Notes under the pieces: model-generated
The model's input: only the letters and a program-made list of their open reading frames with translations
Databases searched by the model: none
What the model was told of the DNA's origin: nothing
Assembly: GCA_025210475.1 (NCBI GenBank)
Contig: JAOARW010000022.1
Coordinates: 1-64,000 of the forward strand
Reading direction: 5' to 3'
Source of the DNA: Carboxylicivirga sp.
Lineage (GTDB): Bacteria; Bacteroidota; Bacteroidia; Bacteroidales; Marinilabiliaceae
Length of the DNA: 64,000 nt
Translations under genes and position numbers: made by a program
Shown: positions 5,247 to 15,306 of the stretch, one piece after another
Layout of the letters: every line of letters starts with the position of its first letter
Position numbering within the stretch: the stretch's first letter is position 1

Positions 5247-6707
5247 TCAGAATCCAAACAGGCCGGGCAACCACATGCTAACCTGCGGAATATAAGTAAC
5301 TATTAATAACACAACTATCATTGCCAAAAACATCGGCAACAATGGCTTTATAACCCGATCTATTTTAACATTTGCTACACTACAACCAATAAACAGAACC
5401 GAACCTACCGGAGGCGTACATAAGCCAACACTCAGGTTAAGCACCATGATAATTCCGAAGTGGGTTGGATCAACACCCATATTTGTTACAATTGGCAAAA
5501 AGATTGGTGTAAATATCAGCACTGCAGGGGTCATATCCATAAACACCCCCACAAAAAGCAGAATCATGTTAATGATGAGCAGTATAATAAAAGGATTATC
5601 ACTAATCCCGAGCAATCCGGCACTAACGTTTTGAGGAATGTTCTCGTAAGCCATAATCCATGATAAACCAATGCAGGTTGCCACCAACAACAATACGATA
5701 GCTGTTGTTTTTACGGATCCCAACAGTATATTAGGAAGATCTTTCAGGCTTATCTCTTTATAAAGCATCGATAATACCAAAGCATAAAACACCGCTACAG
5801 CAGAAGCTTCGGTAGCTGTAAAAACACCACCCACAATACCTCCAATAACTACAATCAGCAAGAACAAACTTGGTATGGCATCCCAAAGAATTTTCAAACC
5901 GCGTTTAACACCCTTAGACCGTTTAATAACCGTTCGTGCAATTAATCCGGCCAGCAATAAGCCGACGATTGACATGCCAACGGCAAACAGATTAGCTGAA
6001 TAGGTATTCAGTTCTTTAAAACCAATACCGACTGCAAACAAAGCACTTGCCCCTAGTAACACTTTTGTCACAGCCAATACAGCTGCTTTCATACCTTTAT
6101 TGTATTTTACCATTAAACCCATTGACAATAGCATAATGGCCATACCGGTAAGAATACCAGGTATGTATCCGGCCAGAAAAAGTGCTGTAATTGATACCCC
6201 ACCACTTGCCAACGAATAAACAATCAGGATATTACTTGGCGGAATAGATAAACCTGTTGTAGCCGATGAAATGTTAACAGCCGCACTAAAATGCTCGTCG
6301 TAACCATCTTTTTTCATTTCCGGTCCCATGATCGAACCGATAGCAGAAGCCGAGGCTGCAGCAGAACCCGATATAGCTCCAAAAAGCATATTGGCAAAAA
6401 CATTTACAAAAGCCAGTCCGGCCGGCCACTTACCAACTAATATTTTAGCCAGGTTAATAAGGCGCATGGCAATACCCCCCTGATTCATAATATTACCAGC
6501 CAGTATAAAAAATGGTATGGCCAGTAATGCAAAACTATCCAATCCGGTTGCCATACGTTGAGCATAGGTAGTAAATGCCGGCAGCGCATCAATGCTAACA
6601 AGCATGGTAAGTACGCCTGCAATTCCAATACTAAAAGCGATAGGTACACCTATTACCAGAAGAAATAAAAATGAAACAACCAATACGATAACTCCAATAA
6701 ACTCCAT
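5247..6707 (-). CDS. dctM: TRAP transporter large permease (DctM)
   Basis: The large integral-membrane subunit (486 aa) of a tripartite ATP-independent periplasmic transporter, which couples sodium import to solute uptake. The sequence is almost entirely hydrophobic, with about 12 or more predicted membrane helices. It carries family-typical stretches such as the N-terminal GVPIAFSIGIAGVLTML and AISGSAAASASAIGSIMGPEM. Its start codon overlaps the dctQ stop by one base, so the two are translationally coupled. The neighbouring glucuronate catabolic genes make a hexuronate the likely substrate. That is inference from context; permease sequence alone does not show specificity. Confidence 0.93.
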   Translation of the reverse strand: MEFIGVIVLVVSFLFLLVIGVPIAFSIGIAGVLTMLVSIDALPAFTTYAQRMATGLDSFALLAIPFFILAGNIMNQGGIAMRLINLAKILVGKWPAGLAFVNVFANMLFGAISGSAAASASAIGSIMGPEMKKDGYDEHFSAAVNISSATTGLSIPPSNILIVYSLASGGVSITALFLAGYIPGILTGMAIMLLSMGLMVKYNKGMKAAVLAVTKVLLGASALFAVGIGFKELNTYSANLFAVGMSIVGLLLAGLIARTVIKRSKGVKRGLKILWDAIPSLFLLIVVIGGIVGGVFTATEASAVAVFYALVLSMLYKEISLKDLPNILLGSVKTTAIVLLLVATCIGLSWIMAYENIPQNVSAGLLGISDNPFIILLIINMILLFVGVFMDMTPAVLIFTPIFLPIVTNMGVDPTHFGIIMVLNLSVGLCTPPVGSVLFIGCSVANVKIDRVIKPLLPMFLAMIVVLLIVTYIPQVSMWLPGLFGF

Positions 6708-7177
6708 TATTTAGCTCCTCCTTTTTCAAATATAAAATAAACAGAATAGTATAATATCAACAATCCACTTATGGGTAGAATCAGATACACATATCCCAGC
6801 GGTAAGTGTAAGGCTGCAGAACTCACGTTGAATTGGAAACGGGTTAATGAAAGCCATGTTCCGCCAACTACCATTACAAACAAAGCAAAAAGTGCGATGG
6901 AAATATTAATGATCAGATTCAATCTTTTTTGATTGGTCAAACTGGATTTTTGAATCAGTAAATCAATTGCCAGGTGTTGCTTCTGACCGGCCACATAAGC
7001 CGATCCCAGTACTCCAACCCAGATTAATAAGAAGCCAGCTAACTCATCGGTAAATGAACTGGGAGATGTTAATATATACCGGCTCATTACCTGCCAGAGT
7101 ACATCAATGACCAACAGTCCCATTAGACCTATTAGTATGTACTCCAATATTTTATCGATGTTTTGTTTTAATTTCAT
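6707..7177 (-). CDS. dctQ: TRAP transporter small permease (DctQ)
   Basis: The small membrane subunit (156 aa) of the same transporter, with four predicted helices (about residues 12-32, 46-64, 87-108 and 127-147). The motif DELAGFLLIWVGVLGSAYVA matches the conserved DctQ core. In this family it bridges the binding protein and DctM. It overlaps dctM by one base and lies 7 bp after dctP, a standard dctP-Q-M order. DctQ proteins diverge widely, so identification rests on topology, this motif and position. Confidence 0.9.
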   Translation of the reverse strand: MKLKQNIDKILEYILIGLMGLLVIDVLWQVMSRYILTSPSSFTDELAGFLLIWVGVLGSAYVAGQKQHLAIDLLIQKSSLTNQKRLNLIINISIALFALFVMVVGGTWLSLTRFQFNVSSAALHLPLGYVYLILPISGLLILYYSVYFIFEKGGAK

Positions 7178-7184
7178 ATGCTTC

Positions 7185-8165
7185 TTAGTTTGTATCCTTA
7201 ATACGTTGAATTAAATTGTATAATTCAGGCTGATCTTTATATGAATCCAACAAGTTCTGAACCTTATCGGCAAAAGCTTCTTTTTTCGGATATGAAACGG
7301 TTACTCCAGCCTTGGTAACTTCATCCAAAGCTTTCTTTTCGGCTTTGGCCCAAAGCTCGCGCTGCACCCCCACTGAGGCCTCTGCCGCTGCTTGTAACCA
7401 CGTTTGTTGTTGAGTCGTTAATTTATCCCACACAACAGTACTCATAATAAGCACATCCGGAACACGCGTATGCTCGTTTAAACAGTAATTTTTACAAACT
7501 TCGTAATGATGTGATGTATAGAAACTGGGAGGATTGTTTTCGGCACCATCCACAACACCACTCTGTAAAGCGGTGTATAGCTCACCCCAAGAGATTGGCG
7601 TAGGTGATCCCCCCATTGCTTTAACCATGTTCATAGCTGTCTGACTCTTCATAACCCGAACTTTTAATCCCTTCAGATCCTGAGGTGCATCAATCTTTTT
7701 ATCCAGAGTATAGAAACTACGGGCGCCGGCATCGTAAAAGCAAAGGCCTTTCAGGTTGTATTTGGTGGTCGAATTCAATAACTCCTGTCCGATTGGGCCA
7801 TCCAGTGTTTTAAAGGTATGTTCTCTGGATCGAAATACATATGGCAAACCCAAAACCTGGTAGTTATCAGTGAAGCTTTCCATTACAGCTGCCGAAACCT
7901 TGGTAATGGCCAAACTTCCTATCTGCAGTAATTCTACACATTGTTGCTCTCCACCTAACTGGCCACTGGGGTATATTTCCATTGTCATCTGGCCTTGTGA
8001 AATGGATTTTAACGTGTCGGCCATAAATACCATTGCTTGATGAACCGGGTGCGAAGGGTCCAATCCGTGTGCCAGTTTGATGGATTTGTGTTTACTATCA
8101 TCCTGACAGGCACTGAATACAAGCAATAAAAGAACCGGTATAAATAAAATTTTGGATCTAATCAT
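7185..8165 (-). CDS. dctP: TRAP transporter solute-binding lipoprotein (DctP), probably for hexuronates
   Basis: A periplasmic solute-binding protein (326 aa) that hands its ligand to DctQM. It starts with a lipoprotein signal (LLLVFSAC, lipid-anchored cysteine near residue 20). The mature part is a DctP family domain: KLAHGLDPSHPVHQAMVFM near its start, then GLKVRVMKSQTAMNMVKAMG and WGELYTALQSGVVDGAENNP. The last two hold the arginine and the region that bind ligand carboxylates in characterised DctP proteins. Related uronate-binding proteins commonly neighbour uxuA/uxuB, which supports glucuronate or a related uronate as ligand. A hairpin separates it from uxuA upstream, so its expression may be partly uncoupled. 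Confidence 0.9.
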   Translation of the reverse strand: MIRSKILFIPVLLLLVFSACQDDSKHKSIKLAHGLDPSHPVHQAMVFMADTLKSISQGQMTMEIYPSGQLGGEQQCVELLQIGSLAITKVSAAVMESFTDNYQVLGLPYVFRSREHTFKTLDGPIGQELLNSTTKYNLKGLCFYDAGARSFYTLDKKIDAPQDLKGLKVRVMKSQTAMNMVKAMGGSPTPISWGELYTALQSGVVDGAENNPPSFYTSHHYEVCKNYCLNEHTRVPDVLIMSTVVWDKLTTQQQTWLQAAAEASVGVQRELWAKAEKKALDEVTKAGVTVSYPKKEAFADKVQNLLDSYKDQPELYNLIQRIKDTN

Positions 8166-8287: not shown

Positions 8288-9472
8288 CTAATTAATCAAA
8301 CTATTTCGTATTCCCAGTTCCAGCCCTCGTATCTCGGCCAAACCTTTCATGCGGCCATACAAGGAATAACCAGGATTATTATCCTTACCAATATCGTCCA
8401 TCATCTGATTTCCATGATCCGGACGTACCGGAATAGAGAAATCTTTACGTCCTGCCTTCTTGCGGTTTTCTTCTTCTTCAACAATCGCCTTTAATACCTC
8501 ATAGATATTAACATCACCTTCGAACAGGTAATCTTCGCGGAAGTTGAAATCCACATCGCGCTTAACATTGCGCAAGTGGGCAAAGTTAATGCGGTGAGCC
8601 AATTCCTTAGCCATTACAGATAGATCGTTAAAATGACCTGCTCCCCATGATCCGGTGCATAAAGTCACTCCATTCGAAATGGAGTCAACCTTATTGATAA
8701 TGGTTTTGGCATCTTCAAGCGTACTCACTACTCGCGGTAAACCCAATAATCCCCATGGTGGATCATCCGGGTGAATGGCCATTCGAACACCTGCTTGCTC
8801 AGCAACCGGTATAATGGCATCCAAAAACTCTAACAAATGCTTACGCAGTGTGGCATCATCAATGTTTCTATATCCATCTAATACCGATTGGAATTGCTCC
8901 AGGGTATAGCTTTCTTCTGCACCGGGTAACCCCTTAATTACGGTATTTGTCAATGTTTCTTTGCCTTGCTCATCCAAACTGGCAAAGTATTCTTTGGCTT
9001 CAGTAACTGTTTTTTCGGTATAGTCATTTTCAGCTTCCGGACGCTTCAATATGTAAATATCAAAAGCTGCAAATACTTTTTGCTGATAAATTAAAGCCAA
9101 TGATCCATCATCGAAGGCAAAATTCAGATCGGTACGCGACCAATCCAATACCGGCATAAAATTGTAACAAATGGTTTCGATACCACATTTACCCAGATTA
9201 GCAATGGTCGTTTTATAGTTTTCAATGTATTCTTTCCAATTACCGCTCTGTTTCTTAATGTCTTCGTGAACCGGCACACTCTCTACCACCGACCAGCTTA
9301 AACCAGCAGCTTCAATCATGTTTTTTCGTTCCATAATATCGGCTTCCGTCCAAACCTGTCCGTTAGGAATCTGGTGAAGTGCTGTTACAATACCGGTAGC
9401 TCCGGTTTGCTTTATATCTTTAAGGGTAATACGATCATTGGGACCGTACCATCTCCAAGTTTGTTCAATCAT
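8288..9472 (-). CDS. uxuA: Mannonate dehydratase UxuA
   Basis: Dehydrates D-mannonate to 2-keto-3-deoxy-D-gluconate (KDG) in the cytosol, the third step of glucuronate breakdown. The 394-aa protein has the usual UxuA length and the characteristic start TWRWYGPNDRITLKDIKQTG. Metal-site signatures typical of the family are visible, including MAIHPDDPPWGLLGLPR and the later FAHLRNVKR and PVRPDHGNQMMDD. It follows the SDR uxuB gene by 84 bp and is the last catabolic gene before the hairpin that precedes the transporter. No unusual features were noted. Confidence 0.96.
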   Translation of the reverse strand: MIEQTWRWYGPNDRITLKDIKQTGATGIVTALHQIPNGQVWTEADIMERKNMIEAAGLSWSVVESVPVHEDIKKQSGNWKEYIENYKTTIANLGKCGIETICYNFMPVLDWSRTDLNFAFDDGSLALIYQQKVFAAFDIYILKRPEAENDYTEKTVTEAKEYFASLDEQGKETLTNTVIKGLPGAEESYTLEQFQSVLDGYRNIDDATLRKHLLEFLDAIIPVAEQAGVRMAIHPDDPPWGLLGLPRVVSTLEDAKTIINKVDSISNGVTLCTGSWGAGHFNDLSVMAKELAHRINFAHLRNVKRDVDFNFREDYLFEGDVNIYEVLKAIVEEEENRKKAGRKDFSIPVRPDHGNQMMDDIGKDNNPGYSLYGRMKGLAEIRGLELGIRNSLIN

Positions 9473-9556: not shown

Positions 9557-10399
9557 TTATACACCGCTATAAGCACTGAATCCACCATCCACAGGCACTA
9601 CAACTCCCGTAATGAATTTTGCCCAATCGGACAATAAATAATTTACAGTACCACAAAGTTCTTCCGGCTCACCGTAGCGTTCCATCGGCGTATTGGTAAT
9701 GATCTTATTTCCACGAGGTGTGGCTTCACCAGTTTGTTCATCAATCAATAAGAAACGGTTCTGATTCGTCAATAAGAATCCCGGAGCTACAGCATTTACC
9801 CGAATGCCTGTTTTGGCAAAATGAACTGCTAACCACTGTGTGAAATTATTAATGGCCGCTTTAGCCGCTGAATAAGCAGGAATTTTTGTTAATGGTGTGT
9901 AAGAATTCATCGACGACACGTTAACAATGGCTCCTTCTTTTTTGTTCAGCATATCTTTGGCAAAAACCATCGATGGCAATAAAGTTCCCTGGAAATTCAA
10001 GGCAAAAACTTTATCAAAACCTTCCATCTGAAGACCAAAGAAAGTTTCTTCCAGACTATCCAGCTTATCTTCTGTTAAGAATTCAGCTTGTGTAGTTGCT
10101 GTGGCCGCATTTCCGCCGGCACCATTCAACAGGTAATCAACAGTTCCCAATTCTTTATGAATCACTTCCAAAGCTGCTTCAAGCGATTCTTTACTCAAAA
10201 CATTGGCGCTGATACCTACCGAAGCCACACCAAACTCATCTGCAATTTCCTGCGCTACTTTTTTAGCCGCTTCTTCGTTCAAATCAAGAATAGCCGTTTT
10301 AACACCATGCATGGCTAATCCTTTTGCCATGGTAGAGCACAAAACACCACCTCCACCAGTAACGACAGCTACCTTATCTTTTAAATTTAATTCGTTCAT
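9557..10399 (-). CDS. uxuB: D-mannonate oxidoreductase (fructuronate reductase), SDR type
   Basis: Reduces D-fructuronate to D-mannonate with a nicotinamide cofactor, between UxaC and UxuA. This is the short-chain dehydrogenase form (280 aa), not the long-chain polyol-dehydrogenase form of E. coli. The Rossmann glycine motif (VVTGGGGVLCSTMAKGLA) is at residues 13-30, NGAGG follows near residue 92, and the catalytic Ser and YSAAK pair sits around 160-180. It ends in GVVVPVDGGFSAYSGV, typical of this group. It sits between eda (47 bp upstream) and uxuA (84 bp downstream). The specific substrate is assigned from the gene neighbourhood; the SDR fold itself is certain. Confidence 0.9.
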   Translation of the reverse strand: MNELNLKDKVAVVTGGGGVLCSTMAKGLAMHGVKTAILDLNEEAAKKVAQEIADEFGVASVGISANVLSKESLEAALEVIHKELGTVDYLLNGAGGNAATATTQAEFLTEDKLDSLEETFFGLQMEGFDKVFALNFQGTLLPSMVFAKDMLNKKEGAIVNVSSMNSYTPLTKIPAYSAAKAAINNFTQWLAVHFAKTGIRVNAVAPGFLLTNQNRFLLIDEQTGEATPRGNKIITNTPMERYGEPEELCGTVNYLLSDWAKFITGVVVPVDGGFSAYSGV

Positions 10400-10446: not shown

Positions 10447-11115
10447 TTATCTCAAAGATTTAATGGTTTCAACCAACTCGCGAGCCTTTTCTTCCAAAGC
10501 TTCGTAGTTCTTGTTTGCCATTATCTCTTTTGGAAATAAATTAGATCCCATGCCCACGCATGTTACACCCGCAGCAAACCAAAGCTCAAGGTTTTCCTTA
10601 TCACAGGTAACGCCGCCTGTTGGCATAATATCAGTCCATGGCATTGGTGCTTTCACCGCTTTTACAAAGGATGGTCCTCCGACCTCAGAAGCCGGGAAAA
10701 CCTTTACCACCTCAGCGCCCAGTTCCTGCGCCTTACCAATTTCACTAATGGTTCCGCAACCAGGCGACCACATTACTTTACGGCGATTACAAATTTTCGC
10801 CATGTTTTCGTTCAATAAAGGAGATACGATAAAATTTGCCCCATTTTGAATGTATAAAGCAGTGGTTCCTTCCTCAACTACAGAGCCTGCTCCCAGGATC
10901 ATTCCCGGCAATTCGGCTAAAGCATACTTGTTAAGTTCGGCAAATAATTCATGGGCAAAATCGCCACGATTCACAAATTCGAAAACACGAATTCCGCCAT
11001 TGTAGCAAGCTTTTAGTACATTTTTACAAACTTCAATATCAGCATTGTAAAAAACAGGTACAACACCCGTTTCTTTCATTGCCTGATAAACTTCTATTCT
11101 GGTATATTTAGCCAT
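10447..11115 (-). CDS. eda: KDPG/KHG aldolase Eda
   Basis: Cleaves 2-keto-3-deoxy-6-phosphogluconate into pyruvate and glyceraldehyde 3-phosphate, the last step linking uronates to central metabolism. The 222-aa protein shows the class I aldolase barrel with the Schiff-base lysine in VVKVFPASEVGGPSFVKA, preceded by MWSPGCGTISE and followed by MPTGGVT, all family signatures. The length is normal. A 118-bp gap separates it from kdgK. No separate promoter consensus was seen there, so it is probably read from the kdgK promoter. Confidence 0.95.
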   Translation of the reverse strand: MAKYTRIEVYQAMKETGVVPVFYNADIEVCKNVLKACYNGGIRVFEFVNRGDFAHELFAELNKYALAELPGMILGAGSVVEEGTTALYIQNGANFIVSPLLNENMAKICNRRKVMWSPGCGTISEIGKAQELGAEVVKVFPASEVGGPSFVKAVKAPMPWTDIMPTGGVTCDKENLELWFAAGVTCVGMGSNLFPKEIMANKNYEALEEKARELVETIKSLR

Positions 11116-11233: not shown

Positions 11234-12271
11234 TTATCGACTAACGCGACCGGAAGCATCACCTCCCATGAGTTTTTCAACTTCTTCGACTGTAACCAAA
11301 TTATAATCGCCCTGAATTGTATGCTTTAAACAAGATGCCGCGGTTGCAAACTCAAGAGCCTTCTGGTCATCTCCTTCGTAAGTTAATAAACCATAGATTA
11401 AACCACCCATAAATGAATCGCCGCCACCTACTCGATCAACAATGTGAGTAATGTCGTAATCAGCTGCTTTAAAAAGAGTTTCTCCATCATACAATACGCC
11501 CGACCAGGTATTGTGGTTGGCATTGATTGAACCACGCAAAGTTGTGATAACCTTTTTAACACGTGGATATTCCTTCATTATTTGTTGCGATACACTGCGA
11601 TATGCTTCTGCTTCGACATGTCCGCTGGTTACATCCATTCCTTCCGGATGAATACCCAACACCATGGCCGCATCTTCTTCATTACCTAATACGATGTCAC
11701 ATCCGGCCACCAGTTCAGGCATTACTTCTGAAGCTTTCTTGCCATATTTCCACAGATTTTTACGGTAATTAAGATCGCATGAAACCATTACTCCCAATCG
11801 ATTCGCGGCCTTAATTGCTTCCAGACAAGCATCTGCTGCCCCCTGAGATACCGCCGGAGTGATACCCGTCCAGTGAAAATAGGCAGCATCTTTCAATACT
11901 TCATCCCAGTTAACCATACCTGGTTCGATGGTTGCAAAAGATGAAAAAGCCCGGTCATAAACCACCTTACTGGCACGTGCTACTGCTCCTGTTTCAAGAA
12001 AATAAATTCCTAAACGATCGCCACCGTATAAAATATTACTGGTATCTACACCGTATTTACGCAACTCCTTCATACAGGCATCGCCCATATCATTTTTAGG
12101 CAAACGTGTTACCAAAGAGGCATCGATACCATAGTTGGCCAGAGAGTAAGCTACATTGGCTTCCCCTCCGCCATAACACATATTTAAATTGTTTGCTTGT
12201 GAGAATCGCTGATAACCCGGCGTTGACAGGCGCAACATTATTTCTCCAAAAGTGACTACTTTTTTTGACAT
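11234..12271 (-). CDS. kdgK: 2-dehydro-3-deoxygluconokinase KdgK (PfkB family)
   Basis: Phosphorylates KDG to KDPG with ATP. A PfkB-family carbohydrate kinase: the N-terminal VVTFGEIMLRLSTPGYQRF and CYGGGEANVAYSLANYG hold the sugar-binding glycines. The C-terminal DRVGGGDSFMGGLIYGLL carries the catalytic aspartate and anion hole. The start is ambiguous. An ATG at 12343 would add 24 polar residues, whereas the ATG at 12271 gives a 345-aa protein whose start, MSKKVVTFGE, fits the family and is preferred. It is the first gene of the leftward glucuronate operon and is divergent from uxaC, sharing the palindromic promoter at 12389-12436. Confidence 0.93.
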   Translation of the reverse strand: MSKKVVTFGEIMLRLSTPGYQRFSQANNLNMCYGGGEANVAYSLANYGIDASLVTRLPKNDMGDACMKELRKYGVDTSNILYGGDRLGIYFLETGAVARASKVVYDRAFSSFATIEPGMVNWDEVLKDAAYFHWTGITPAVSQGAADACLEAIKAANRLGVMVSCDLNYRKNLWKYGKKASEVMPELVAGCDIVLGNEEDAAMVLGIHPEGMDVTSGHVEAEAYRSVSQQIMKEYPRVKKVITTLRGSINANHNTWSGVLYDGETLFKAADYDITHIVDRVGGGDSFMGGLIYGLLTYEGDDQKALEFATAASCLKHTIQGDYNLVTVEEVEKLMGGDASGRVSR

Positions 12272-12388: not shown

Positions 12389-12436
12389 CAAATATAAGCA
12401 AAAGGTGTGTGCGCACACACTTTTTGCTTATATTTG
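12389..12436. promoter_or_regulatory. Divergent kdgK/uxaC promoter embedded in a 48-bp palindrome
   Basis: The two halves pair over 24 bp with a single mismatch (12404 against 12421). The centre is the perfect 16-mer GTGTGTGCGCACACAC (12405-12420). The outermost 8 bp on each side are TAnnTTTG -7 elements: TATATTTG on the plus strand at 12429-12436 for uxaC, and the same on the minus strand at 12389-12396 for kdgK. The predicted uxaC leader is only about 10 nt. The -33 regions of both promoters would fall in the central palindrome. A dimeric regulator bound there, plausibly the LacI protein at 13932, could block both promoters at once (inference). Confidence 0.75.
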
Positions 12437-12452
12437 TAAGAAAAGTAACACC

Positions 12453-13847
12453 ATGTTGATACACGACAACTTCTTATTATCCAATGATACCGCCCAAAAG
12501 CTCTATCATGAGTTTGCTAAAAATCTTCCAATAATTGATTACCATTGTCACCTTTCTCCGAAGCAAATTGCCGAAGATATTAATTTCGATAACATCACAC
12601 AGCCCTGGTTACACGGTGATCATTATAAATGGCGCGCCTTGCGTACCAATGGTATCGAGGAAAAATACATAACCGGTGATGCCAGCGATTGGGACAAATT
12701 CAGGCACTGGGCACAAACGGTTCCTTACACCTTGCGTAATCCTCTTTATCACTGGACGCACCTTGAACTCAACAAACCTTTTGGCATTAAAAAGCTTTTG
12801 AACCCAAACACGGCTAAAGAAATCTGGGATGAATGTAATGCAAAATTGCAGACACCTGAATTTTCGTGCAAAGGCATGATTCGACAGGCAAATGTTGAAA
12901 TAATCTGTACAACCGATGATCCTGTTGACACCCTAGAGTGGCATCGAATGATTAAAGACTCTGGTTTTGAAACCAAAGTACTGCCAACCTGGCGTGCCGA
13001 TAAAGCTTTAGGAATCGATACAGGTAAGTATTTTATCGACTATTTGGATAAATTAAGCAAGGCATCTGGCATTGAAATCACCAATTATGCCACCTTAATG
13101 GAGGCCTTGCAAAATCGACAGGATTTCTTTGAGCAGATGGGTTGTAAGCTATCGGACCATGGTTTGGATCGCTTCTATTGCGACGACTATACGCAAGACG
13201 AAATTGAAGCTATCTTTAACAAAGCCCTTAATAAAGAAGACCTAAGCAACAAGGAAATTTCGAAATACCGATCGGCTGTGTTATACAATTTGGCTGTGAT
13301 GGATCACAACAAAGGCTGGGCTCAGCAATTCCATGTGGGTGTTATTCGAAATAATAATACTAAAATGTTTAATCAAATCGGACCTGATACCGGCTTCGAT
13401 TCCATCGCCGATGACCTGGTCGCGAAAGATATGTCGAAGTTCTTTAACCGTCTCGCCACTGAAGATAAACTAACCAAAACTATTCTTTACAATCTGAATC
13501 CATCGCACAACGAAGTATATGCTACGATGATTGGCAATTTCCAGGATGGCAGCATCGCTGGCAAAATTCAATGGGGATCGGGTTGGTGGTTCCTCGATCA
13601 AAAAGATGGAATGGAAAAACAAATGAATGCCCTATCGAACCTTGGCTTGCTCAGCCGCTTTGTTGGTATGTTAACCGATTCGCGCAGTTTTCTGAGTTAT
13701 AGTCGCCACGAATATTTCAGACGCATACTCTGTAACTTACTGGGGCAGGATGTTGAAAATGGCCTTATCCCTAACGATATGGATCTATTGAAAGAATACG
13801 TTGAAGGCATATGTTATAAGAATGCCAAAAACTATCTCAATTTTTAA
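12453..13847 (+). CDS. uxaC: Glucuronate isomerase UxaC
   Basis: Interconverts D-glucuronate and D-fructuronate (and D-galacturonate and D-tagaturonate), the entry step of the pathway, in the cytosol. An amidohydrolase-fold enzyme: the metal ligands appear early in PIIDYHCHLSP, then EIICTTDDPVDTLEWH and the late GWWFLDQKDGMEKQM and SRSFLSYSRHEYFRR, all UxaC signatures. An in-frame ATG at 12405 lies inside the promoter palindrome, so the start is placed at 12453 (464 aa, normal length). It is transcribed away from the other catabolic genes and is followed by a hairpin and the LacI regulator. Confidence 0.96.
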   Translation: MLIHDNFLLSNDTAQKLYHEFAKNLPIIDYHCHLSPKQIAEDINFDNITQPWLHGDHYKWRALRTNGIEEKYITGDASDWDKFRHWAQTVPYTLRNPLYHWTHLELNKPFGIKKLLNPNTAKEIWDECNAKLQTPEFSCKGMIRQANVEIICTTDDPVDTLEWHRMIKDSGFETKVLPTWRADKALGIDTGKYFIDYLDKLSKASGIEITNYATLMEALQNRQDFFEQMGCKLSDHGLDRFYCDDYTQDEIEAIFNKALNKEDLSNKEISKYRSAVLYNLAVMDHNKGWAQQFHVGVIRNNNTKMFNQIGPDTGFDSIADDLVAKDMSKFFNRLATEDKLTKTILYNLNPSHNEVYATMIGNFQDGSIAGKIQWGSGWWFLDQKDGMEKQMNALSNLGLLSRFVGMLTDSRSFLSYSRHEYFRRILCNLLGQDVENGLIPNDMDLLKEYVEGICYKNAKNYLNF

Positions 13848-13890
13848 TAATGCACAATTTATAGTTTCTTTGGATTAATAATTGGTATGC

Positions 13891-13926
13891 AGAACGTCAG
13901 TAATTATGCTGGCGTTCTTATTTTAT
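13891..13926 (+). terminator. Terminator or attenuator between uxaC and the LacI gene
   Basis: A 10-bp stem, AGAACGTCAG / CTGGCGTTCT (one G-U pair), encloses an 8-nt loop at 13891-13918 and is followed directly by TATTTTATT. It ends just before the regulator ATG at 13932. Read-through of it would set how much regulator is made from the uxaC promoter. Confidence 0.65.
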
Positions 13927-13931
13927 TAAGC

Positions 13932-14984
13932 ATGAAAATCAGAATTGTTGACATTGCTAAGAAGGCAGAAGTTTCGGTAGGTACAGTGGACCGTTATATT
14001 CATAAACGTGGCAAAGTATCGAAAAAAGCAGCTGAAAAAATTCAATTGGCCATTAAAGAATTGGGCTACGAACCAGACATTATGGCGCGTAACCTGGCCC
14101 TAAAAAAAGAACATCGCATCGCTTGCGTTTTACCAAACCCTGAAGAAATAAAATACTGGGAGCGTCCCTATACAGGTATTGATAAAGCCATTTCGGAGTT
14201 ATCATCATTTAAGGTGCTGATTGATAAATTTTACTTCACCCCCCGAACCGATTCTTTTAAAGAAGTCTGCCAACAGGTGCTAAGCAAACAATACGATGGT
14301 GTGGTATATGTACCTATGTTTTTTGAAGAATCTAAAAGCTTTGCTCAGCAATTAAACGCTACAGAAACTCCATTTATCCACTTTAATATTCACCATAGCC
14401 AGGCGGAACCTTTGGCTTTTATCGGGCAACATGCCCATTCGGCCGGACAACTGGCGGCCAGCCTTTGCCAGATGACGCTTAAGACTGATCAGGAGATTCT
14501 GATTACCTACGTACTGAAAGAGCAACAGGAGTTCTCGCATCACGAAGAGCGCATTGATGGTTTTATGGATTTTAGATGGCACAACACCTCTAAACCCAAG
14601 ATTCACCACCTAACGCTGAAAATTGAAGAAACGGAGAAGAAACACGAAACAATATTGTTGGATTTTCTTGCTAACAATCCTAAGGTGCAGATTATTTTTG
14701 TGCCTAACTCACGTGCTTATCGAATCGCCAGCATCCTAAAAAAGAATCAAATTCTTGACAAGATGATTATTGGCTTTGATACATTGGAAGAAAATGTACA
14801 GTTTTTAAATGAGGGGATGATTGATGTGCTTATTGGCCAGCAATCAAAAGCGCAAGGTTATAACGCCGTGATGTTAATGTTTAATTACCTGTTCAAGAAA
14901 GAGGACATTACCGGCACCCACTACCTGCCAATTGATATTCTTAATCAGCAAAACATTGAATTTTACGAGGGCTTGCTTAAATAG
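13932..14984 (+). CDS. LacI-family transcriptional regulator, probable uronate-locus regulator
   Basis: A 350-aa sugar-responsive DNA-binding protein. The N-terminal helix-turn-helix is clear (IVDIAKKAEVSVGTVDRYIH, then AAEKIQLAIKELGYEPDIMA as hinge lead-in). It is followed by a periplasmic-binding-protein-like sensor from about residue 60 (HRIACVLPNPEE). A longer frame from 13887 would run through a terminator hairpin, so the ATG at 13932 is used. It directly follows uxaC. The nearby 12405-12420 palindrome, with a central CG step as in LacI-family operators, is its most likely site. The inducer is probably a uronate or KDG (inference); no biochemical specificity can be read. Confidence 0.9.
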   Translation: MKIRIVDIAKKAEVSVGTVDRYIHKRGKVSKKAAEKIQLAIKELGYEPDIMARNLALKKEHRIACVLPNPEEIKYWERPYTGIDKAISELSSFKVLIDKFYFTPRTDSFKEVCQQVLSKQYDGVVYVPMFFEESKSFAQQLNATETPFIHFNIHHSQAEPLAFIGQHAHSAGQLAASLCQMTLKTDQEILITYVLKEQQEFSHHEERIDGFMDFRWHNTSKPKIHHLTLKIEETEKKHETILLDFLANNPKVQIIFVPNSRAYRIASILKKNQILDKMIIGFDTLEENVQFLNEGMIDVLIGQQSKAQGYNAVMLMFNYLFKKEDITGTHYLPIDILNQQNIEFYEGLLK

Positions 14985-15048: not shown

Positions 15049-15306
15049 TACGAAAAATGTACAGCACAGACGTTATCGTCTGGTGTAACGACGAAATAAT
15101 TTGGTGCAGTGGACGAAAAACGTATAGCACAGACGAAAACGTATAGTTCCAAGGCGATGAAACGTGTTGTAATGGACGAAAAATGATTTGCATAGGCAAA
15201 ATCGTCTGGTGCCATGAAGGATAACTGAATTTGAAAGGAAATTCGTATACTACACCATACGAATTGTCGTAATGAAAGACAAAATCGTATAGTGCAAAAC
15301 GAATTA
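15049..15306. repeat. Degenerate 21-bp-period repeat array
   Basis: About 13 imperfect units, each beginning with a form of ACGAAAA and continuing to a form of CGTATAGTGCA, with starts spaced 19-22 bp apart (mean near 21). Examples: CGTCTGGTG occurs at 15077 and again exactly 126 bp later at 15203; CGTATAG occurs at 15121, 15140 and 15286. Some units form hairpins, for example AATTCGTAT / ATACGAATT at 15240-15265. Because the period is a multiple of three, the minus strand stays open with 7-residue pseudo-repeats, but I see no sign that it is a gene. The function is unknown. It fills the gap between the convergent LacI and GH2 genes. Confidence 0.7.

Follow-up and report, generated by a model that had tools for sequence, protein, structure and literature searches.

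We analyzed a stretch of 64,000 nucleotides from a Carboxylicivirga genome (hereafter, the window), in which a long palindrome separates two divergently transcribed sets of genes. The locus encodes the uronate pathway in two divergent units. On the minus strand, the left unit begins with kdgK (11234-12268, with the start codon taken at 12268), a 2-keto-3-deoxygluconate kinase-like gene that matched the Pfam PfkB model above its cut-off and no NCBIfam model at cut-off; its substrate is assigned from context. It is followed by eda (KDPG aldolase; 10447-11115; NCBIfam NF005499), a D-mannonate oxidoreductase gene of the uxuB type encoding an SDR protein (9557-10399; NF006132) and uxuA (mannonate dehydratase; 8288-9472; TIGR00695), all above the cut-offs of these models, and by TRAP transporter genes (5247-8165), for which the large permease and the DctP binding protein were found above cut-off and the small permease below. 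On the plus strand, the right unit consists of uxaC (uronate isomerase; 12453-13847; NF002794 above cut-off) and a gene for a LacI-family regulator (13932-14984) whose product presents the Pfam LacI and Peripla_BP_4 domains above cut-off. This protein, the predicted binder of the palindrome, was matched by LacI-family models of NCBIfam, none of them at cut-off, and by 3gbv, CcpA, PurR and LacI among PDB structures. The first-pass annotation of this DNA had described kdgK and uxaC as the two sides of a single switch. The divergent pair is confirmed, but the left unit is larger than kdgK, since eda, uxuB, uxuA and the TRAP genes follow it on the same strand.

Inspection by eye of the intergenic sequences of the right unit revealed a terminator-like hairpin (GAACGTCAG...CTGGCGTTCTTATTTT) at 13890-13925, between uxaC and the LacI gene. 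Hairpins of varying sequence are also present at the matching place in four relatives (G003, G005, G010 and G013), and perhaps this element sets the level of LacI through partial read-through. Past the LacI gene, positions 15050-15300 contain many short degenerate repeats with words resembling ACGTATAG and GACGAAAA, also seen by eye.

The palindrome spans 48 bp (12389-12436) and has no loop. Its two arms of 24 bp (12389-12412 and 12413-12436) are 96% complementary, and the sole mismatch opposes G12404 to T12421. At the center lies the perfect 16-bp palindrome GTGTGTGCGCACACAC (12405-12420), with CG at its midpoint (12412-12413), which we predict to be the core of a LacI-family operator. Spacers of 8 bp connect this core to an outward-pointing box at each end: the left spacer (12397-12404) mirrors the right one (12421-12428) at 7/8 positions. 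An inverted repeat of 24 bp with one mismatch, a perfect center and outward boxes at its ends had been proposed before, and the coordinates and the palindrome scan confirmed each of these elements.

We evaluated how unusual such a palindrome is by scoring loopless palindromes with +1 for a match and -3 for a mismatch. The palindrome reached a score of 20, and the runner-up in the 64-kb window a score of 9; the best score in 20 windows simulated with a first-order Markov model was 11. Part of the same genome, sampled as 20 segments of 20 kb on three contigs (400,000 bases in total), gave best scores of 18, found once, and then 14. The palindrome with a score of 18 contains long A and T tracts and appears terminator-like by eye. 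Other sites sharing the core scored higher still: the one at uxaB in the window's genome reached 24, and one in a relative reached 26. An unrelated palindrome in genome G326, with arms of 24 bp, also outscored the palindrome of the window with a score of 24 (across all the loci collected, 980,243 redundant bases). Long loopless palindromes are therefore rare, yet not unique to the uronate system.

The outer boxes are both candidate promoter elements. The predicted -7 box of uxaC, TATATTTG, is located at 12429-12436 on the plus strand, and the predicted -7 box of kdgK is the same word on the minus strand at 12389-12396, where the top strand reads CAAATATA. Both fit the consensus TAnnTTTG, point outward, lie 17-24 bp from the center of the palindrome and are separated by 32 bp; TATATTTG occurs five times in the 64-kb window, both strands together. 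A sigma-70 promoter scan returned no match, as expected in Bacteroidota. As described in PMC7366714, the sigma-ABfr promoters of this phylum carry TAnnTTTG at -7 and TTTG near -33, and the -33 motif is reported there as likewise not identified in Flavobacterium johnsoniae. The predicted promoters of the window agree with this description for both of their -7 boxes but lack the consensus TTTG at -33, a position where the operator half-site presents TGTG instead. If transcription initiates 5-7 bp past each box, the two starts would lie about 60 bp apart; both -33 regions would then fall inside the core, and two polymerases would exclude each other. The earlier proposal that the operator contains shared -33 regions agrees with their predicted positions. 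The implied leader of uxaC would be only ~10 nt long, which counts against the model.

Several properties of the core are those of LacI-family operators. The motifs of this family are described mostly as even palindromes of 16-22 bp with a central CG, and more than 75% of the sites as lying 140 to 30 bp upstream of the start codon (PMC4052901). The core of the window is a perfect even palindrome of 16 bp with a central CG, and a LacI gene is both linked to it and co-occurs with it in other genomes. Its center is located 40 bp before the ATG of uxaC, in the usual range, and 144 bp before the ATG of kdgK, just outside this range. The earlier view of a LacI-type operator between divergent promoters is supported by the even palindrome, the central CG, the outward boxes, the pair of uronate genes and the adjoining LacI gene, and we infer that the neighboring LacI protein binds the palindrome.

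We then examined the recurrence of the core. No second match to GTGTGTGCGCACACAC with up to 3 mismatches was found within the 64-kb window. In the 7.4-Mb genome, the exact core is found in two places: the window and a site upstream of uxaB-uxaA-uxaC on another contig (C8). One further place presents one mismatch and another presents two. With up to 3 mismatches, the core was found in 12 places relative to 7 for the reversed control, so the places with three mismatches say little and only the best four are usable. In the C8 operon, the product of uxaB carries Pfam domains of the mannitol dehydrogenase type and that of uxaA those of the altronate hydrolase type. The uxaC gene of this operon is a second copy in the genome, and its protein is 81% identical to that of the window. 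Across the 19.5 kb that include this operon, we saw no LacI gene when considering open reading frames of 150 aa or more.

Orthologs of the LacI protein (64-65% identity) were found in 4/13 other genomes of the genus (G003, G005, G010 and G013), each adjoining uxaC. The helix-turn-helix and hinge sequences (GTVDR... and ARNLALKK) are nearly invariant across the five orthologs. We searched for the core with a strand-aware scan of the upstream sequences of 8 uxaC and 14 kdgK entries of the genus, and non-genus uxaC loci were scanned whole. The core was located within 500 bp of the kdgK start in four of the five genomes with the ortholog (G000, that of the window, as well as G003, G005 and G013); in G013 it differs by two changes, which mirror each other. 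Upstream of uxaB, the core was found in G000 and G005, in G003 with two extra bases, and in G010, where it spans a contig break. None of the six ortholog-free genomes of the genus in which kdgK copies were checked (G001, G002, G004, G006, G007 and G009) presented the core within 500 bp, and it was also absent at three more kdgK copies of LacI-bearing genomes (G003 C85, G010 C79 and G010 C59). This comparison covered 14 kdgK copies with a collected locus, setting aside copies without one (including G003 C11, G003 C72 and G007 C1, 72-74% identical), the copies of G011 that are cut by contig ends, and any copy whose identity does not exceed about 50%. The genome of G008 possesses no kdgK copy. 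The first-pass annotation had named a search for the 16-mer in relatives as a test that could overturn its reading, and the core was recovered at kdgK, uxaB or uxaC in 4/4 of the genus relatives with the ortholog. Upstream of another LacI-family match in G010 (C59; L094, near position 1410), we also observed a near-palindrome of 40 bp made of two inverted CAAACGTTTG motifs.

Across wider groups the core is rare: with up to one mismatch, it was present in 6/71 genomes of the family, and an exact 14-mer of it in 10/393 genomes of the order and 6/395 of the phylum. A scan of the GTDB set for TGTGCGCACA flanked on both sides by TAnnTTTG, which may leave out the records of the window's own genome, retrieved three stretches: Carboxylicivirga marina (G005), a Bacteroidales MAG (G013) and Aestuariivivens sediminicola. 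The last of these sites stands between relatives of uxuB and LacI; it proves little on its own because about one match is expected by chance (a hand estimate that assumes an even base composition).

The operator might instead belong to a regulator other than the neighboring LacI protein. In the window's own genome, weaker places of the core are found ~20-60 bp from the starts of genes for a GFO/IDH/MocA oxidoreductase and a sulfatase (C54 and C50), with asymmetric arms, so that the core may serve further genes or a second regulator, and all the LacI-family NCBIfam models remained under their cut-offs for the LacI protein. Against this, the ortholog and the site co-occur within the genus, and in other families the core adjoins LacI genes of only ~31-33% identity. 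We therefore regard another regulator as quite improbable. Taken together, the comparison supports the prediction that the core is a LacI-type operator, and we consider an operator combined with two promoters to be probable.

We further analyzed the symmetry of the arms across the sites carrying the core. To do so, the two arms were compared at 31 core sites over positions 12-24 from the center, which lie beyond the reported length of LacI motifs; two sites of G375:C9, the one-mismatch sites of G068, G035 and uxaC of G054, and the uxaB site of G003 (core TGTGCGCGCACA) were left out. Four sites presented 13/13 matches between arms: the window, C8, G013 and G010. One site beside a LacI gene (G234) presented 11/13, and the remaining 26 sites presented 1-7/13. 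As a control, left arms were compared with the right arms of other sites: these 930 pairs presented 4.1 matches on average and 12 at most, with 11 or more in five pairs and 13 in none. Besides the window, the sites at uxaB on C8, at uxaC/kdgK in G013 and at uxaB in G010, the last two in a second and a third species, have arms that pair without any mismatch for 24 bp or more. The palindrome of G010 is read across a contig break, where the end of C79 (...GTGTGTGC) meets the start of C72 six bases before the center; the joining of these two contigs at the palindrome is our inference.

Fortuitous likeness of AT-rich promoter arms around an ordinary operator is a conceivable origin of these matches, and 26/31 core sites do fall within the range of the cross-site control. 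However, four sites with 13/13 matches contrast with 0/930 cross-site pairs, and the genome and Markov controls argue in the same direction. Near-perfect symmetry that is repeated with differing letters contradicts chance similarity of the arms, which we consider extremely improbable.

The letters of the arms indeed differ between the symmetric sites. Between C8 and G010, the spacers carry different letters at positions 15, 16 and 17 from the center, and between C8 and G013 at positions 7, 9, 15 and 16; these differences are mirrored by necessity, because each of the compared sites is itself perfect. On either side of the core, the spacer of the window has one base fewer than in the perfect sites. 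Outside the palindrome, the flanks of C8 and G010 and those of the window and G013 aligned no better than shuffled sequences: the observed matches were reached by 21, 60, 57 and 60 of 60 shuffles in the four comparisons. The left and right sequences of both C8 and G010 mismatch at position 25.

The symmetry had previously been viewed as the result of two divergent promoters sharing one operator, and other sites of the genus do not fit this view. At C8 and G010, the outer arms enter hybrid two-component genes that differ from each other (32% identical) and point in the same direction as uxaB, so the outer arm serves no divergent gene at either of these symmetric sites. Conversely, C. marina possesses both boxes and the core between divergent genes, yet its spacers are asymmetric, with arm symmetry of 6/13, and the sites of G003 are one-sided or devoid of boxes. 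Full symmetry is therefore not required. At the uxaB relative of G077, the perfect run is 16. In G234, the mirrored stretch contains only a partial box, which is aimed into the operator; this perfect palindrome of 42 bp (L055, near position 1572), built on the same core with its box pointing inward, precedes a LacI gene of another family. In the uxaC tree, the non-symmetric G003 and G005 form a late pair (support 100/99) within the symmetric ones, the base of the tree being not resolved, a placement that fits a single gain and a single loss of symmetry. The symmetric sites are few in number and related to each other.

The boxes themselves follow the genes. The genus comprises five two-armed sites (the window, C8, G013, G005 and G010), at which the boxes begin 17 or 18 bp from the center. 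Among them, the boxes facing a gene read TATATTTG in 8/8 cases, and those facing no divergent gene read TATATTTA in 2/2 cases. This contrast, though small, is what a promoter working on one side only would give.

Selection alone could account for the symmetry if divergent promoters needed equal strength and spacing, or if LacI made contacts well beyond 22 bp, with mirrored changes chosen arm after arm. The exact conservation of TATATTTG in the boxes that face genes is consistent with this explanation, as is the presence of LacI orthologs in all three genus genomes with symmetric sites. It does not explain, however, why two sites are symmetric when their outer arm faces no divergent gene, nor why C. 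marina presents asymmetric spacers with the identical gene logic. Moreover, the spacer letters differ between sites and thus do not indicate sequence-specific contacts, and the length of 16-22 bp described for most LacI-family motifs (PMC4052901) is also unfavorable to contacts reaching further. We regard selection alone as unlikely.

Alternatively, the selected property could be a nucleic-acid structure, either a cruciform that depends on supercoiling or a hairpin in the RNA that would terminate transcription in both directions or serve as an insulator. This is a serious rival because it predicts the identical pattern of symmetry. The predicted RNA folds reach -28.1, -25.1 and -34.7 kcal/mol at three sites (z < -9), as those of any palindrome would, and the palindrome of the window gives 4 terminator-like matches (a GC stem with a T run behind it), on both strands, relative to 0.0 in shuffles. 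The palindrome at uxaB also stands after a hybrid sensor-kinase gene transcribed in the same direction. In contrast, no neighboring gene is transcribed into the palindrome at uxaC/kdgK; the Aestuariivivens site has no terminator-like match, and that of C. marina has 1, which is some sign of a terminator but lies on one strand. On balance, selection for structure also appears unlikely.

The interpretation that we favor, with moderate confidence, combines these observations: the palindrome would be a LacI operator between back-to-back promoters, one bound dimer would silence both units, and the symmetry would be kept by mutation templated by the palindrome itself. In this mechanism, LacI bound to the core as a dimer would shut off the promoters of both uxaC-lacI and kdgK-eda-uxuB-uxuA-TRAP, and would presumably be released by an intermediate of the uronate pathway. 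At replication, a fork may stall at the hairpin formed by the operator, and the polymerase may copy one arm onto the other, such that a one-way repressed promoter would acquire or keep its mirror image. Selection would then retain the boxes where genes need promoters. The persistence of symmetry without conservation of sequence suggests that the arms evolve in concert, for which templated mutation is the best explanation. The single mismatch of the window, which is not mirrored, counts against this model, as do the left-right differences of C8 and G010 at position 25 and the asymmetric spacers of C. marina. Taken separately, templating as the source of the arm symmetry stands somewhat short of an even chance. 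More tentative still is the broader proposition that the operator acts as a mutational mirror, with template switching repeatedly copying the promoter across and thereby creating and maintaining two-way promoters under one repressor.

Parts of this model have known counterparts. UxaR, UxuR and KdgR are LacI-family proteins predicted to act as local regulators of glucuronate and galacturonate genes in Bacteroides (PMC3878776, PMC4052901). They resemble the LacI protein of the window in family, pathway and phylum; this likeness is one of description, and the passages of these reports that describe them mention no symmetric promoter arms. The switch of the window is thus a further example of known LacI regulation of uronate genes. 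Bidirectional promoters of E. coli share one -10 element, and their starts lie mostly 18, but also 10 or 23 bp apart (PMC12825309). They have in common with the window a pseudo-symmetric DNA on which the polymerase could load in either direction, and in the window the spacing of the boxes suggests that one orientation may exclude the other. The site of the window differs by its two -7 boxes, 32 bp apart around a repressor core, and by near-perfect symmetry over 48 bp; it possesses no shared -10 element and is not a bidirectional promoter in the sense of Warman. Finally, template-switch mutation at quasipalindromes is described in E. coli, from reporters and a thyA hotspot, as perfecting imperfect inverted repeats (PMC7202029). 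The sites studied here likewise present complementary arms whose sequence differs between relatives (G010 being read over the contig break and the window retaining one mismatch). Such perfecting of repeats is what we propose here, and the relevant passages of that work do not present the process as a source of promoters at operators. Among the matches listed in a search of one open-access library, no title or opening of an abstract described fusions of promoter and operator whose symmetry is maintained by template switching.

The unusual part of this system is a repressor core with near-perfectly mirrored promoter arms, in which symmetry persists rather than sequence. Operators and promoters are commonly viewed as the outcome of selection on binding. 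A symmetry that outlasts changes of its letters, even where no divergent gene benefits from it, suggests that regulatory palindromes are subject to a mutational force. Perfect palindromic operators may also break assemblies, as two contigs of G010 (C79 and C72) stop at the palindrome center, and such operators may go under-reported in genomes sequenced with short reads. If the templating model is true, it would offer a simple path from a one-way to a two-way repressed promoter, and operators could seed divergent gene pairs whose promoters are kept identical by copying that resembles gene conversion.
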